Below are positions 4,678-12,550 of a stretch of 43,978 nucleotides of DNA, one piece after another. Positions within the stretch are counted from its first letter, which is position 1, and every line of letters begins with the position of its first letter. The notes beneath the pieces were generated by a model that was given only the letters and a program-made list of their open reading frames with translations, did no database searches and was not told the origin of the DNA. Location: contig PMTR01000089.1 of NCBI GenBank assembly GCA_003167255.1, positions 18,370 to 62,347 of the forward strand. Reading direction: 5' to 3'. The translations under genes were made by a program, and so were the position numbers. Source of the DNA: Bryobacterales bacterium. Its GTDB lineage: Bacteria; Acidobacteriota; Terriglobia; Bryobacterales; Bryobacteraceae.

Positions 4678-4977
4678 AAACGGCTGGCCGGTCAATTGAA
4701 ACCGGCGGTCCATTCAAAATTATGAATCGGCGGGATAGAAATAATGAATTTCCCACGCGCCGGGCGTGAATGGTAAGTATTGTACCAAAGGCCCCGGGTG
4801 GTGCGGTTAAGGAATGGGATTGTCGCAGATCGCAGCGCCGCACCTTTCACCCGGGCCGGACGCCTGGAACAGTGCCTGCCGAGGTTTTCGCTTGGATTGC
4901 CAAACCCAATCAAATAAATCGCGAAGGCCGCACTCAACGGACCCCTGAACCGCGCGCTGACACGGTAAACTGTGGTT

Positions 4978-5208
4978 ATGCCGCTTTCCGAGCGCATCGT
5001 CGTGGATCCCCAGGTCCTGGCCGGCAAACCAGTGATCCGAGGGACGCGTTTGGCCGTCGAGTTCGTTCTCGAACTCCTCGCGGCTGGCCAGTCCGAGAGC
5101 GAGCTCCTGACGAACTATCCCGGCCTGAAGCGAGACGACATTCTCGCCTGCTTATCATACGCCAGCTACTTGGCCCATGAATACAAGGCCTATCCGATTC
5201 CAGCGTAG
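4978..5208 (+). CDS. DUF433 family antitoxin
   Basis: This 76-residue protein (an upstream in-frame GTG at 4972 would give 78) matches DUF433, a small winged-helix-like family. It shows SERIVVDPQVLAGKPVIRGT near the start and YPGLKRDDILACLSYASYL toward the end. DUF433 proteins are usually found just before a DUF5615 PIN-like gene and are annotated as antitoxins of type II modules, where they bind DNA and repress their own operon. The downstream DUF5615 gene starts on the next base after this stop codon. A similar pair occurs at 25533-26093. Confidence 0.85.
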   Translation: MPLSERIVVDPQVLAGKPVIRGTRLAVEFVLELLAAGQSESELLTNYPGLKRDDILACLSYASYLAHEYKAYPIPA

Positions 5209-5571
5209 ATGCGCCTCCTCGCTGACGAAAACTCTCCGAAGCCGATTGTCGAGGTACTTCGCGCCGATGGCAACGATGTCCTTTGGGCTCGAACCGATTG
5301 CTCCGGTTGGAAGGATGCCGCCCTACTGGACTTCGCCGAATCCGAAGCGCGCATCGTACTGACGCTGGATAAGGACTTCTGGCAGATTGCCGTTCAACGC
5401 CGGATTCCTATCGAACAATCGGGCGTCGTCTTGTTTCGAGTTCATCCCTCGACTTCCGGGAATATCGAGCCTCTCGCGCGTGTCTTTGTGGAGACGGATA
5501 GGCCATGGGCCGGACACATCAGCATCATCGCCGCCGACGGAATTCAGATGCTGGCTGCTCGAAGGCTCTGA
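5209..5571 (+). CDS. DUF5615 PIN-like toxin
   Basis: The 120-residue protein begins MRLLADENSP, with acidic residues Asp6 and Glu7, and has LTLDKDFW (Asp54, Asp56). These are the conserved acidic positions of the DUF5615 PIN-like nuclease family. Such proteins are thought to be RNases held inactive by the DUF433 partner, although direct proof is limited. No bases separate it from the antitoxin gene, which implies translational coupling. The base composition of the pair is visibly less GC-rich than its neighbours, consistent with mobile gene cargo. Confidence 0.82.
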   Translation: MRLLADENSPKPIVEVLRADGNDVLWARTDCSGWKDAALLDFAESEARIVLTLDKDFWQIAVQRRIPIEQSGVVLFRVHPSTSGNIEPLARVFVETDRPWAGHISIIAADGIQMLAARRL

Positions 5572-7714: not shown

Positions 7715-8161
7715 GTGGCTGATATCAACCTGACCCAACCAGAGGCCGATGCCCTGATCGCCATGGGAAAAATTCGCGTGGATGATAAACAGTGGAGTTT
7801 TCCATCTCCGGGTGAGAGGATGGCCATCCCCCTAACCTCATCCGACAAGAGAGAGAACTTCACTCTTGATGTGACTCGCGCCCAGATCAAGCTCACCAAG
7901 GCGACTTACCAGAACAGAGCGCGCCAGGCGATTATACTCATGAGGCTGGATCTCGACGGCCCGGCGCATCGAAACCCGGACGGCGCCGACATCCCTTGCC
8001 CGCACTTGCATGTGTACTGCGAGGGTTTCGGCGACAGGTGGGCGATTCCCGCGCCGCCCGACAAATACCCAAACACGCAGGACCTTTTCTCGACTTTCGA
8101 GGGGTTCATGAAACACTGCAACATCACTGATCCGCCTCAAGTCCAAATGGGGCTCTTCTAA
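7715..8161 (+). CDS. DUF6978-like protein, first gene of a coupled pair
   Basis: This 148-residue protein starts at a GTG. The N-terminus reads [12 protein letters not shown] and [13 protein letters not shown], the centre [12 protein letters not shown], and the C-terminal half holds [19 protein letters not shown] recognise this as the DUF6978 type, a small family with no known function. The HxH within CPHLHV is a candidate metal or catalytic site, but this is inference. The stop codon shares one base with the ATG of the DUF1828/DUF1829 gene (TAATG), a strong sign of translational coupling. The pair is visibly less GC-rich than its neighbours and looks acquired. Confidence 0.7.
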
Positions 8162-8928
8162 TGGTCAGCGAGATCGAAAAGCTTTTGAATAATTATCGCG
8201 CTTGGCTCAAGGACAAGACAACGCTTCGCCAAGTAAACAGCACGTGGGTGGAGATCACGACGCCCTACCTTGACCGGCATAACGATGCGCTCCAGATTTA
8301 CGCGCGCCGGGAAAATGGTGGATTCGTCCTCACAGACGACAGTTACACCATCCACGATCTGGAAGCATCCGGCTGCAATCTCCACACTGAGAAACGCCAG
8401 GACCTTCTCAAGATGGCCCTCAGCGGATTCGGCGTGCGGCTGAACAACGAAGCACTCGAAGTGGTCGCTTCCCCTGTGACCTTCCCGCTGCGTAAGCACT
8501 CCCTCATTCAGGCCATGCTTGCCGTGAACGATCTTTTCTACCTCGCAAAGCCCATGGTAGAAAGCCTGTTTTATGAAGACGTGATTGCATGGCTGGACGC
8601 CAACGAGATCCGCTATACGCCGAAGGCGAAGTTCAACGGCACCAGCGGCTACGACCACCTGTTCGATTTCGTGATTCCGAAATCTCGAAGGCAGCCGGAA
8701 CGCATTCTGCAGGCGATCACTCGCCCGACGCGTGATGCCGCCCAGTCGCTTATTCACGCCTGGACCGACACTCGGCAAGTTCGGACGCCAGAGTCAAGAG
8801 CATACGCGGTTCTGAACGACACCGAAAGCGCAATTCCGGGCGGAGTAATGGACGCCTTCCGAAATTACGCCATTCAGCCCGTACCGTGGGGCGACCGTGC
8901 CCAAGTTGTCACGGAACTCGCGGCTTGA
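8161..8928 (+). CDS. DUF1828/DUF1829 domain protein, partner of the DUF6978-like gene
   Basis: The 255-residue protein has an N-terminal DUF1828 domain (about 25-115) with [15 protein letters not shown] and [19 protein letters not shown]-terminal DUF1829 region (about 150-245) contains [21 protein letters not shown]. Both are uncharacterised domains that are often found together in phage-like or accessory regions. No catalytic motif is evident, but the conserved acidic and histidine residues around RHND and TDDSYTIHD suggest an enzyme or nuclease-like fold. Coupling through TAATG to the upstream gene argues that the two products act together. A toxin-antitoxin or defence role is possible but not shown. 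Confidence 0.78.
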
Positions 8929-10830: not shown

Positions 10831-11406
10831 TCATGCCCGACCCGCGAATGTCCGGCTCTCCGTCGACACCTTTACCTTTTCACCTTCCTTGATAAAGAGA
10901 GGAACACGGATCTCAAGACCGGTCTCCAGCGTGGCTGGCTTGGTCACGCTGCCGCTCGAAGTGTCGCCCCGCACACCCGGTTCCGTAGCGGTAACTTCCA
11001 ACTCAACGAACGCCGGCAGCTCTAAACCGATGGGATTGCCGTTGTACTTGCGCAACTCGACCAGGGTGCCCTCGATCAGGAAGTCCATCGCGTTCCCGAT
11101 CACCTCATCGGCAAGGGTGTGGGTCTCATAGGTTTCCTGGTCCAGGAAGTGAGAACCACTGCTGTCGCTATACAGATAGGAGGCCGGGACCAAATGGAGA
11201 TCCGGCTCCCTGAACTTCTCACCCGCCTTGAATGTCTTCTCAAAGACCGCGTTTGTGAGAAGGTTGCGAATCTTCAGGCGCACCAGAGTCTGGCCACCCC
11301 GAGCGGTGGGCGTGTTCACCTCCACTTCCAGGCAGGCGAAGGGGGTGTTATCAATCTCAAACAAAGTCTTTCGCTTGACGTCAATCGCATCAATCAATAC
11401 GGCCAT
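10831..11406 (-). CDS. efpL: EF-P-like translation factor of the YeiP/EfpL type
   Basis: The 191-residue three-domain protein has the EF-P fold (KOW-like domain, then two OB folds). Its tip loop reads TPTARGGQT with Arg36 at the apex, instead of the PGKG loop of canonical EF-P. The SPTARG-type loop, KPATLETGL and the C-terminal GRA are features I associate with E. coli YeiP, now called EfpL. EF-P proteins bind the ribosome next to the P-site tRNA and relieve stalling at proline-rich sequences; EfpL uses an unmodified arginine. GAGGAG lies four bases before the ATG. No modification enzyme is nearby. Confidence 0.85.
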   Translation of the reverse strand: MAVLIDAIDVKRKTLFEIDNTPFACLEVEVNTPTARGGQTLVRLKIRNLLTNAVFEKTFKAGEKFREPDLHLVPASYLYSDSSGSHFLDQETYETHTLADEVIGNAMDFLIEGTLVELRKYNGNPIGLELPAFVELEVTATEPGVRGDTSSGSVTKPATLETGLEIRVPLFIKEGEKVKVSTESRTFAGRA

Positions 11407-11521: not shown

Positions 11522-12550
11522 TTATTGCAGTTGAACCAGCCGCTCGCCCTGCTGCTCGCCCACGGGCGCCGGCGCCAGATCCTGCTTGCCGCGCCAGAAA
11601 TCCAAGTAGGAGATCTGGTGCACACAGGCCACCGTGCAGTGCGGCGCGCAGCTCTTCTCCGTGCGGTACTCGCGGCGAACGTCTTCCACGGTGTACTCGG
11701 CCAGCGGCTTTCCGGGGTAGCCGCGCTGCTGCGAACAGTAATGCACCAGGCCGTCTTCGCAGATGTAGAGGTAGCGCGCGCCGGCGCGGCAGCGCCAGTG
11801 GTTGGGCTTGCCGTGCGCGATGTTGTCCTGGAAATAATTGATGCGCGCGTAGCTCGATTTTTCCATGGCGCGCATGGCGGTGTAGACTTCGCGCTCTTCG
11901 TCTTGCAAAGGCTGCAACTGGCCGTCACCGTCGTGAATGATGCCGACGGTGGATGTGAACCCCAGCTCGATGGCTCGCTTGCCGATCACCAGGGCGTCTT
12001 TGGGAGTGCGGATGCCGCCTCCCACCACCGAATTGATGTTCACGTGAAAATCGGCGTGTTCGGCCAGGAGTTGCAGTTTCTTATCGAGCACCTTGAGGCT
12101 CTTCTTCGAAACGTCGTCGGGCATGACGTTGTCGATGGAGATCTGCAGGTGGTCCAGTCCGGCGCGGTTGAGGCGCTGGATGCGTTCGGCGGTCAGCAGA
12201 TAGCCGTTGGTGATCATGCCGGAAATCATCCCGTGCTTGCGGACGCGCGCGATGATCAGGTCCAGGTCGGGATGCAGCAACGGTTCGCCGCCGGAAATCG
12301 TGATGATGCTGGTGCCTAGTTTCGCCAGGCGGTCGAGACGTTGGTACATCACGTCGATGGAGACCGGCTTGGAGTGGTCGTCGAATTCGTTGCAGTAGGC
12401 GCAGGCCAGATTGCAGCGGCGCATGGGGATGACGTGCGCCAGAATCGGATGGTCCGTGGACGCCAGACCCTGGCCGATCATGCGGAATTCCCGGGCGCGG
12501 CGGCTGACCGCCTTCCAACCCCTCCGAAGATGTTTGGCCAGATCAGACAT
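11522..12550 (-). CDS. Radical SAM protein with SPASM-like C-terminal cysteines
   Basis: The 342-residue protein has the radical SAM cluster motif CNLACAYC (Cys46, Cys50, Cys53) and a typical GGEPLLHPD motif. The C-terminal third has many cysteines (WRCRAG, YICEDG, HYCSQ, KSCAPHC, ACVHQ), as in SPASM domains that hold additional iron-sulfur clusters. Such enzymes often modify ribosomal peptides, maturate enzymes or act on lipids. No precursor peptide or modification partner is visible next to it. It stands alone between the EfpL gene and the TIGR03435 gene, so the substrate cannot be inferred. Confidence 0.87.

Follow-up and report, generated by a model that had tools for sequence, protein, structure and literature searches.

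A mobile DUF6978 and DUF1828/DUF1829 gene pair of the candidate defence system PDC-M24 as a possible toxin-antitoxin-like module

What might two small, tightly joined genes of no assigned function be doing among otherwise ordinary neighbours on a bacterial contig? In the window, the whole 43,978-nucleotide stretch of a Bryobacterales genome analysed here, gene A (148 aa, positions 7715 to 8161, GTG start) is followed by gene B (255 aa, 8161 to 8928, ATG start). Both are uninterrupted and lie on the plus strand, as do all the features within them described below; A is the proposed toxin and B the proposed antitoxin or neutraliser. The stop codon of A and the start codon of B are joined in TAATG (8159 to 8163), with base 8161 in common, an arrangement that suggests translational coupling. 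These coordinates and the one-base overlap had been put forward in an earlier note on this DNA and are borne out, as is its view that both products consist of domains without known function: Pfam finds DUF6978 in A (1.6e-43) and DUF1828 followed by DUF1829 in B (1.5e-26 and 7.2e-30).

The pair also differs from its surroundings in composition, as had been claimed: G+C is 0.564 in both A and B, against 0.655, 0.652, 0.617 and 0.654 in the four nearest genes. Because the nearby EF-P gene (10831 to 11406) is similar to the pair, at 0.566, composition is by itself weak evidence of transfer. The flanking genes are ordinary by Pfam: upstream of the pair lie genes for a metallo-beta-lactamase-fold protein and for a GNAT acetyltransferase, downstream of it genes for a protein of the carboxymuconolactone decarboxylase family and for a class II DAHP synthase. 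For acquisition as judged from an empty site, one same-genus genome was examined, and its contig ends just after the GNAT gene. Elsewhere in the window, a DUF5615 (PIN-like) gene at 5209 to 5568 (Pfam 1.7e-17), a small ORF without Pfam match before it and a dip in G+C mark a second possible toxin-antitoxin pair at 4770 to 5571. On the minus strand, a radical SAM protein (11522 to 12550) resembles the PADLOC pVip model at 2.6e-18 over about 100 residues, which is probably generic radical SAM similarity.

The system had been taken for undescribed, and here the earlier note needs correction. The PADLOC models PDC-M24A and PDC-M24B match A at 3.6e-57 and B at 4.3e-101, nearly full length and in adjacent genes. 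The pair is a real member of the catalogued candidate defence system PDC-M24; no difference was seen between the window pair and PDC-M24, which is itself a catalogue entry. A full-text search for PDC-M24 or its DUFs found no literature on its function. The terms PDC and M24 are absent from the accessible part of the PADLOC web-server paper (PMC9252829), and the available text of a further paper counts DUF1829 as one of the domains newly linked to defence (PMC13092281). Other resources added little: NCBIfam matched B once, without significance, and A not at all; PHROGs returned families of unknown function plus one non-significant homing-endonuclease match; sequence searches against solved structures yielded nothing usable for A or B; and a viral scan with A as query returned no relative.

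How faithfully the two genes travel together can be judged from either partner. Among species genomes, a scan confirmed 209 B relatives, of which the best 80, at 59 to 81% identity, were used; these best 80 of 209 come from Acidobacteria, Planctomycetes, Proteobacteria, Nitrospirae, Chloroflexi, other groups and methanogenic archaea, and the pair is also carried in phages, Gram-positive prophages and plasmids. A and B are both intact in 64 of these 80 loci, with A partial in 11 and absent in 5 (best 80 of 209). Both genes exceed simple length limits in 63 of the 80 (best 80 of 209), and within those 63 the overlap is exactly 4 bases in 49 and 1 base in 7, counted with start codons picked by script. 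From the side of A, DUF6978 is present in 20 of 299 class genomes at 21 distinct places, and the genes, whose co-occurrence the earlier note had proposed to check, are not mostly separate there: a DUF1828/1829 relative adjoins DUF6978 at 19 of the 21, in one case (L129) on the opposite strand and in several with weak A similarity only. The two exceptions are a contig that ends within A (L116) and a partial A with about 0.5 kb of contig left and no B (L128). DUF1829 itself occurs in 16 of the 299 class genomes. Across the phylum, DUF6978 was found in 10 and DUF1828 in 22 of 391 genomes, with 9 common to both; in one genome (G508) the two domains lie on two different contig ends, and the tenth DUF6978 match, without DUF1828, is below cut-off and full of stops. 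A and B rarely occur apart, and they form the coupled two-gene operon that is a criterion of type II toxin-antitoxin systems.

Pairing becomes looser on a more divergent branch, surveyed through the regions before 22 DUF1828 genes from the phylum search, for the most part genes with no clear DUF6978 neighbour. Ten of these 22 are preceded by a small, usually overlapping gene or by a broken gene in which the pattern R-x-[D/N/C]...H...HxH can be read (L226, L228, L231, L233, L238, L240, L241, L244, L245 and L246), three by a fragment or by part of the pattern (L224, L242 and L247) and one by a contig end (L225); no A-like gene was recognised before DUF1828 in the other eight (L229, L232, L234, L235, L236, L237, L239 and L248). 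When Pfam was run on the upstream genes of L231, L238, L241, L244 and L245, two of the five matched DUF6978, one above and one below cut-off, and three matched nothing. The A family is thus wider than Pfam's DUF6978, since ten divergent upstream genes carry the H...HxH pattern; DUF1828 also occurs without a recognisable A. The source genome of the window holds three more of these divergent DUF1828 loci, on contigs C155 (L224, both genes truncated), C49 (L247) and C176 (L248). Directly upstream of DUF1828 in C176 lies a small DUF2283-like ORF, and L247 has an ORF of this kind downstream. DUF1828 was also found above cut-off in the E. coli control genome.

In gene A, the conserved residues R77, D79, H85, N87, D89, H97, H99 and Y101 resemble an active site; among 68 aligned sequences, drawn like the 72 of B from the window plus related genomic loci only, N87 is present in 68, R77 and H85 in 67 each, H97 and H99 in 66 each and D79 in 62. 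The two last histidines form the HxH motif (H97-L98-H99, positions 8003 to 8011). An AlphaFold2 model of A built on the alignment of 68 sequences has a mean pLDDT of 88.8, and comparison of this model with solved structures gave no convincing relative (best Z 3.6).

A possible relative of A is TumE. According to the accessible sections of PMC10584680, TumE has been validated as a translation-targeting toxin that reduces the incorporation of methionine; its predicted fold sets two helices on a sheet of seven strands, and it occurs with several unrelated partners, most of them described as proteins of unknown function and one as RelB-like, the TumE gene predominantly following that of its partner (PMC10584680). 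Pfam's TumE model (DUF6516, PF20126) does not match A, for which DUF6978 alone is reported at E<=1, and profiles of narrow, window-like A sequences did not match TumE (E 0.28 to 0.32, or 0.12 with a 12-sequence profile). A widened profile of 28 A sequences scored 21.8 (E 0.0044) against 11 TumE sequences picked by eye for a PHHKH-type motif from 16 (themselves taken from 21 matches), with none of 120 shuffles as high (best 15.6). When all 16 were used the score was 19.2 (E 0.013), again unequalled by any of 80 column shuffles (best 13.9); R-x-D and HxH are in register in the alignment. As controls, the reversed profile reached 11.7, four other real profiles 10.8 to 13.3 and a single XisI sequence 16.3. 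Single TumE sequences searched with the A profile did not beat 137 neighbour proteins (p 0.14), with 1 of 16 above all of them. A has, by these comparisons, weak profile similarity to TumE. The likeness to TumE-TumA (DUF6516) would then lie in a small alpha+beta proposed toxin, a two-gene operon and an R-x-D...H...HxH pattern in register at profile level, whereas in the window pair the proposed toxin gene comes first and the partner is DUF1828-DUF1829; some TumE partners might nevertheless be DUF1828 proteins.

Gene B is composite. Its AlphaFold2 model, from 72 sequences, has a mean pLDDT of 91.8 and a pTM of 0.54, the latter suggesting that the halves are not fixed against each other. The model of the DUF1828 half (residues 13 to 131, positions 8197 to 8553) matches 3cxj (Z 9.0, 105 aligned, 2.8 A), the SpcU chaperone (Z 7.9, 93 aligned), ExsC (Z 7.5) and YbjN (Z 6.8), and the label chaperone-like is tentative, because a Z near 8 can reflect a common arrangement. 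This half holds six of the nine positions that never vary among 72 B sequences; D38 and D59 are present in 72 of 72, and D42 and D60 in 70. The DUF1829 half (residues 130 to 255, positions 8548 to 8925) is predicted to have a PD-(D/E)XK core fold: its model matches AF1548 (Z 11.5, 110 residues, 3.0 A), Can2 (Z 11.1, 117 residues), NucS (Z 10.5) and XisH (Z 8.4 and 8.2). The third core strand, residues 181 to 186, reads RILQAI and so lacks (D/E)xK, and no conserved D/E-x-K was found in this half. Acids are well conserved there (E139 in 67, D165 in 65, D169 in 60 and E180 in 68 of 72), so a non-canonical site is possible. The earlier note had quoted the HxH of A and the RHND and TDDSYTIHD of B as candidate catalytic residues. 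All are present and conserved, but an active-site-like cluster is found in the HxH protein only; nothing marks the motifs of B as catalytic, because both sit in the half whose predicted fold is like that of secretion-chaperone and YbjN domains.

A functional hint for the second half of B may come from DUF3037 proteins. A profile of 16 diverse DUF1829 sequences aligned with the C-terminal half of 10 DUF3037 proteins, a hand-picked few from those in 123 genomes, at a score of 25.4 over 86 columns, with none of 80 shuffles as good (best 17.4); a narrow DUF1829 profile of close relatives scored 11.6, with 38 of 80 shuffles as good, and Pfam DUF1829 was found in none of 7 DUF3037 proteins. The profile match agrees with the architecture published for the defence protein DS-6B, described in the available part of PMC13092281 as DUF3037+DUF1829. 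At a HipA-DUF3037 locus, according to the accessible text of PMC12548924, deleting the DUF3037 gene caused toxicity, and defence was lost when HipA was deleted. The present pair would resemble HipA-DUF3037 (PDC-M66; DS-6/HipAD) in that the C-terminal half of the neutralising protein there is similar to DUF1829 at broad-profile level; it differs in that the toxin of that system is a HipA-like kinase and the N-terminal half of its neutraliser is DUF3037, whereas the partner of B in the window is DUF6978. DUF3037 proteins are very common in the class, being found in 123 of 200 genomes, and such abundance suggests roles beyond restraining HipA for many of them.

We place a probability of about 0.55 on the reading that the pair is a mobile toxin-antitoxin-like abortive-infection module, with A as the toxin and B as its neutraliser. 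The earlier suggestion of a toxin-antitoxin or defence module is to that extent partly supported, the evidence favouring a coupled, mobile module. Were A a toxin that B counteracts, A would not be expected to persist without B. Among 39 loci selected through DUF6978, A is intact in 24; the contig ends within or before B in three of these (L116, L119 and L214), and B is intact in 21 of the remaining 21 (for L113, over the part that its contig covers). Among loci selected through B, A is broken or missing in 16 of 80 (best 80 of 209), with L011 and L045 at contig edges, and B is intact with A broken or absent in 14 of 78 (within the best 80 of 209), or in 13, since L022 lies just under the 85% threshold for an intact A. 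The damage to A takes the form of frameshifts, internal deletions and 5'-truncations; both genes are broken in L126, L131 and L210. Comparison of 0 of 21 with 14 of 78 (within the best 80 of 209) gives a naive Fisher p of 0.037, with 8 of the 21 loci in both sets; without these 8 common loci it becomes 0 of 13 and p 0.21, which is not significant (B set within the best 80 of 209). The direction of the asymmetry fits a toxin A, and the statistics do not settle the matter.

Genomic context links many relatives of the pair to type I restriction. In Pfam scans, which covered 64 of 72 genes upstream and 68 of 76 genes downstream, eight short ORFs being omitted on each side, the nearest downstream gene is HsdR in 14 of 68 and the nearest upstream gene HsdS in 13 of 64 (16 of 64 with PADLOC specificity models). 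BLAST with seeds taken from the loci places Hsd homologs in the fetched stretch of 34 of 80 loci, a same-strand arrangement with HsdS before and HsdR after the pair in 25 of 80, with some HsdS links weak (for example L022, L051 and L075), and HsdS directly before A or HsdR directly after B in 24 of 80 (all within the best 80 of 209); the seeds are taken as HsdR and HsdS from Pfam and PADLOC tallies that are not per protein, and the HsdM seed is presumptive. Three loci (L022, L024 and L064) have both HsdS abutting A and HsdR abutting B. Among the 8 neighbours scanned with Pfam in the window there are no hsd genes, and no Hsd homologs were found in the window's 18 closest relatives (L003 to L020, within the best 80 of 209). 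L015 and L068 have a common upstream neighbour that looks like a DNA methyltransferase, and Pfam gave two N6_N4_Mtase matches. Lysogeny modules often carry defence cargo; in five of the eight phage records viewed, the pair is flanked by an annotated repressor or regulator on one side and the integrase on the other, in two of the eight, one of them a satellite phage, the integrase is downstream with no annotated repressor just upstream, and one, a partial genome, has neither. The slot of PrrC also lies between hsdS and hsdR. In the available sections of PMC3874165, PrrC is described as a suicide effector that blocks translation and is encoded within the EcoprrI type I R-M operon; it is a single-protein anticodon nuclease that the R-M complex keeps sequestered. 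The present pair is like PrrC/EcoprrI in that it is embedded among hsd genes in other loci, and unlike it in consisting of two unrelated genes and in having no hsd genes found beside it in the window.

Roles might be reversed, with B an effector nuclease whose site is non-canonical and with A acting on it as activator, specificity factor or immunity protein in a two-protein nuclease defence. The PD-(D/E)XK fold is common to many defence effectors, and both the matches of the DUF1829 model to nucleases and effectors (AF1548, Can2 and NucS, at the Z scores given above) and its four conserved acids would suit such a role. It is made doubtful, to the point of being unlikely, by a third strand without (D/E)xK, by the concentration of invariant residues in the DUF1828 half and by the loci in which B is intact without A, an odd outcome if A restrained B. 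Kinship with XisI-XisH, controllers of mobile-element excision, is very improbable. XisH is coded with a small partner, XisI, and like the C-terminal half of B it matches a PD-(D/E)XK fold in the model comparison; Foldseek aligned B with XisH 2inb (TMt 0.61, E 0.05) and listed XisI among weak matches of A (E 0.3 to 1). XisH may, however, match merely as a small PD-(D/E)XK fold; its chains of just 128 to 129 residues differ from B, as they leave no place for a DUF1828 half, and the score of 16.3 for XisI against the A profile is not significant, comes from a single XisI sequence and was equalled by 4 of 137 neighbour proteins. XisI was found in 1 of 48 locus genomes; none turned up in 101 class genomes, in a scan whose controls also gave no signal and which therefore does not demonstrate absence.

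The restriction context could also mean that the pair kills nothing and instead acts as a counter-restriction or restriction-control accessory of type I R-M systems and phages, modulating the assembly of HsdR. Its position beside hsdS and hsdR, often with overlapping genes, and its carriage by prophages would be explained in this way, but 46 of 80 loci (best 80 of 209, some with short stretches) have no Hsd homolog, the closest kin of the window among them, and A has a conserved catalytic-looking cluster, so that we regard an accessory role as quite improbable, more so than an effector B.

To return to the toxin-antitoxin-like module with A as toxin, we infer from the pairing, conservation, contexts and predicted folds reported here how toxicity, neutralisation, target and trigger might be arranged. 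A would be a small alpha+beta toxin with an R-x-D...H...HxH cluster, probably hitting RNA or translation by analogy with TumE. The chaperone-like DUF1828 half of B probably holds A, and the DUF1829 half, judged by its modelled PD-(D/E)XK fold without a canonical catalytic motif, probably serves to bind DNA or to sense infection. The two proteins would be made in matched amounts by coupled translation until a phage disturbs B, or the restriction complex often encoded with the pair; A would then be freed and the infected cell stopped.

A bolder and decidedly speculative extension would make PDC-M24 systems restriction guards, in which a translation-stopping toxin and a chaperone/dead-nuclease antitoxin occupy the PrrC-like slot between hsdS and hsdR; a phage that inhibits type I restriction would thereby release the toxin, and the infected cell would be killed. 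B would on this proposal represent a new and widespread antitoxin architecture, a chaperone-like domain joined to a degenerate PD-(D/E)XK domain, whose C-terminal domain is common to HipA-neutralising DUF3037 proteins and which is paired with fast-diverging TumE-like toxins; free-standing and prophage copies, that of the window included, would guard other targets. If this is true, three domains of unknown function would be recognised as a toxin, a domain that holds it and a degenerate domain of nuclease fold, a catalogued defence candidate of bacteria, archaea and phages would be explained, and the idea embodied in PrrC, a suicide switch within a restriction operon, would be extended to a common two-gene cassette.
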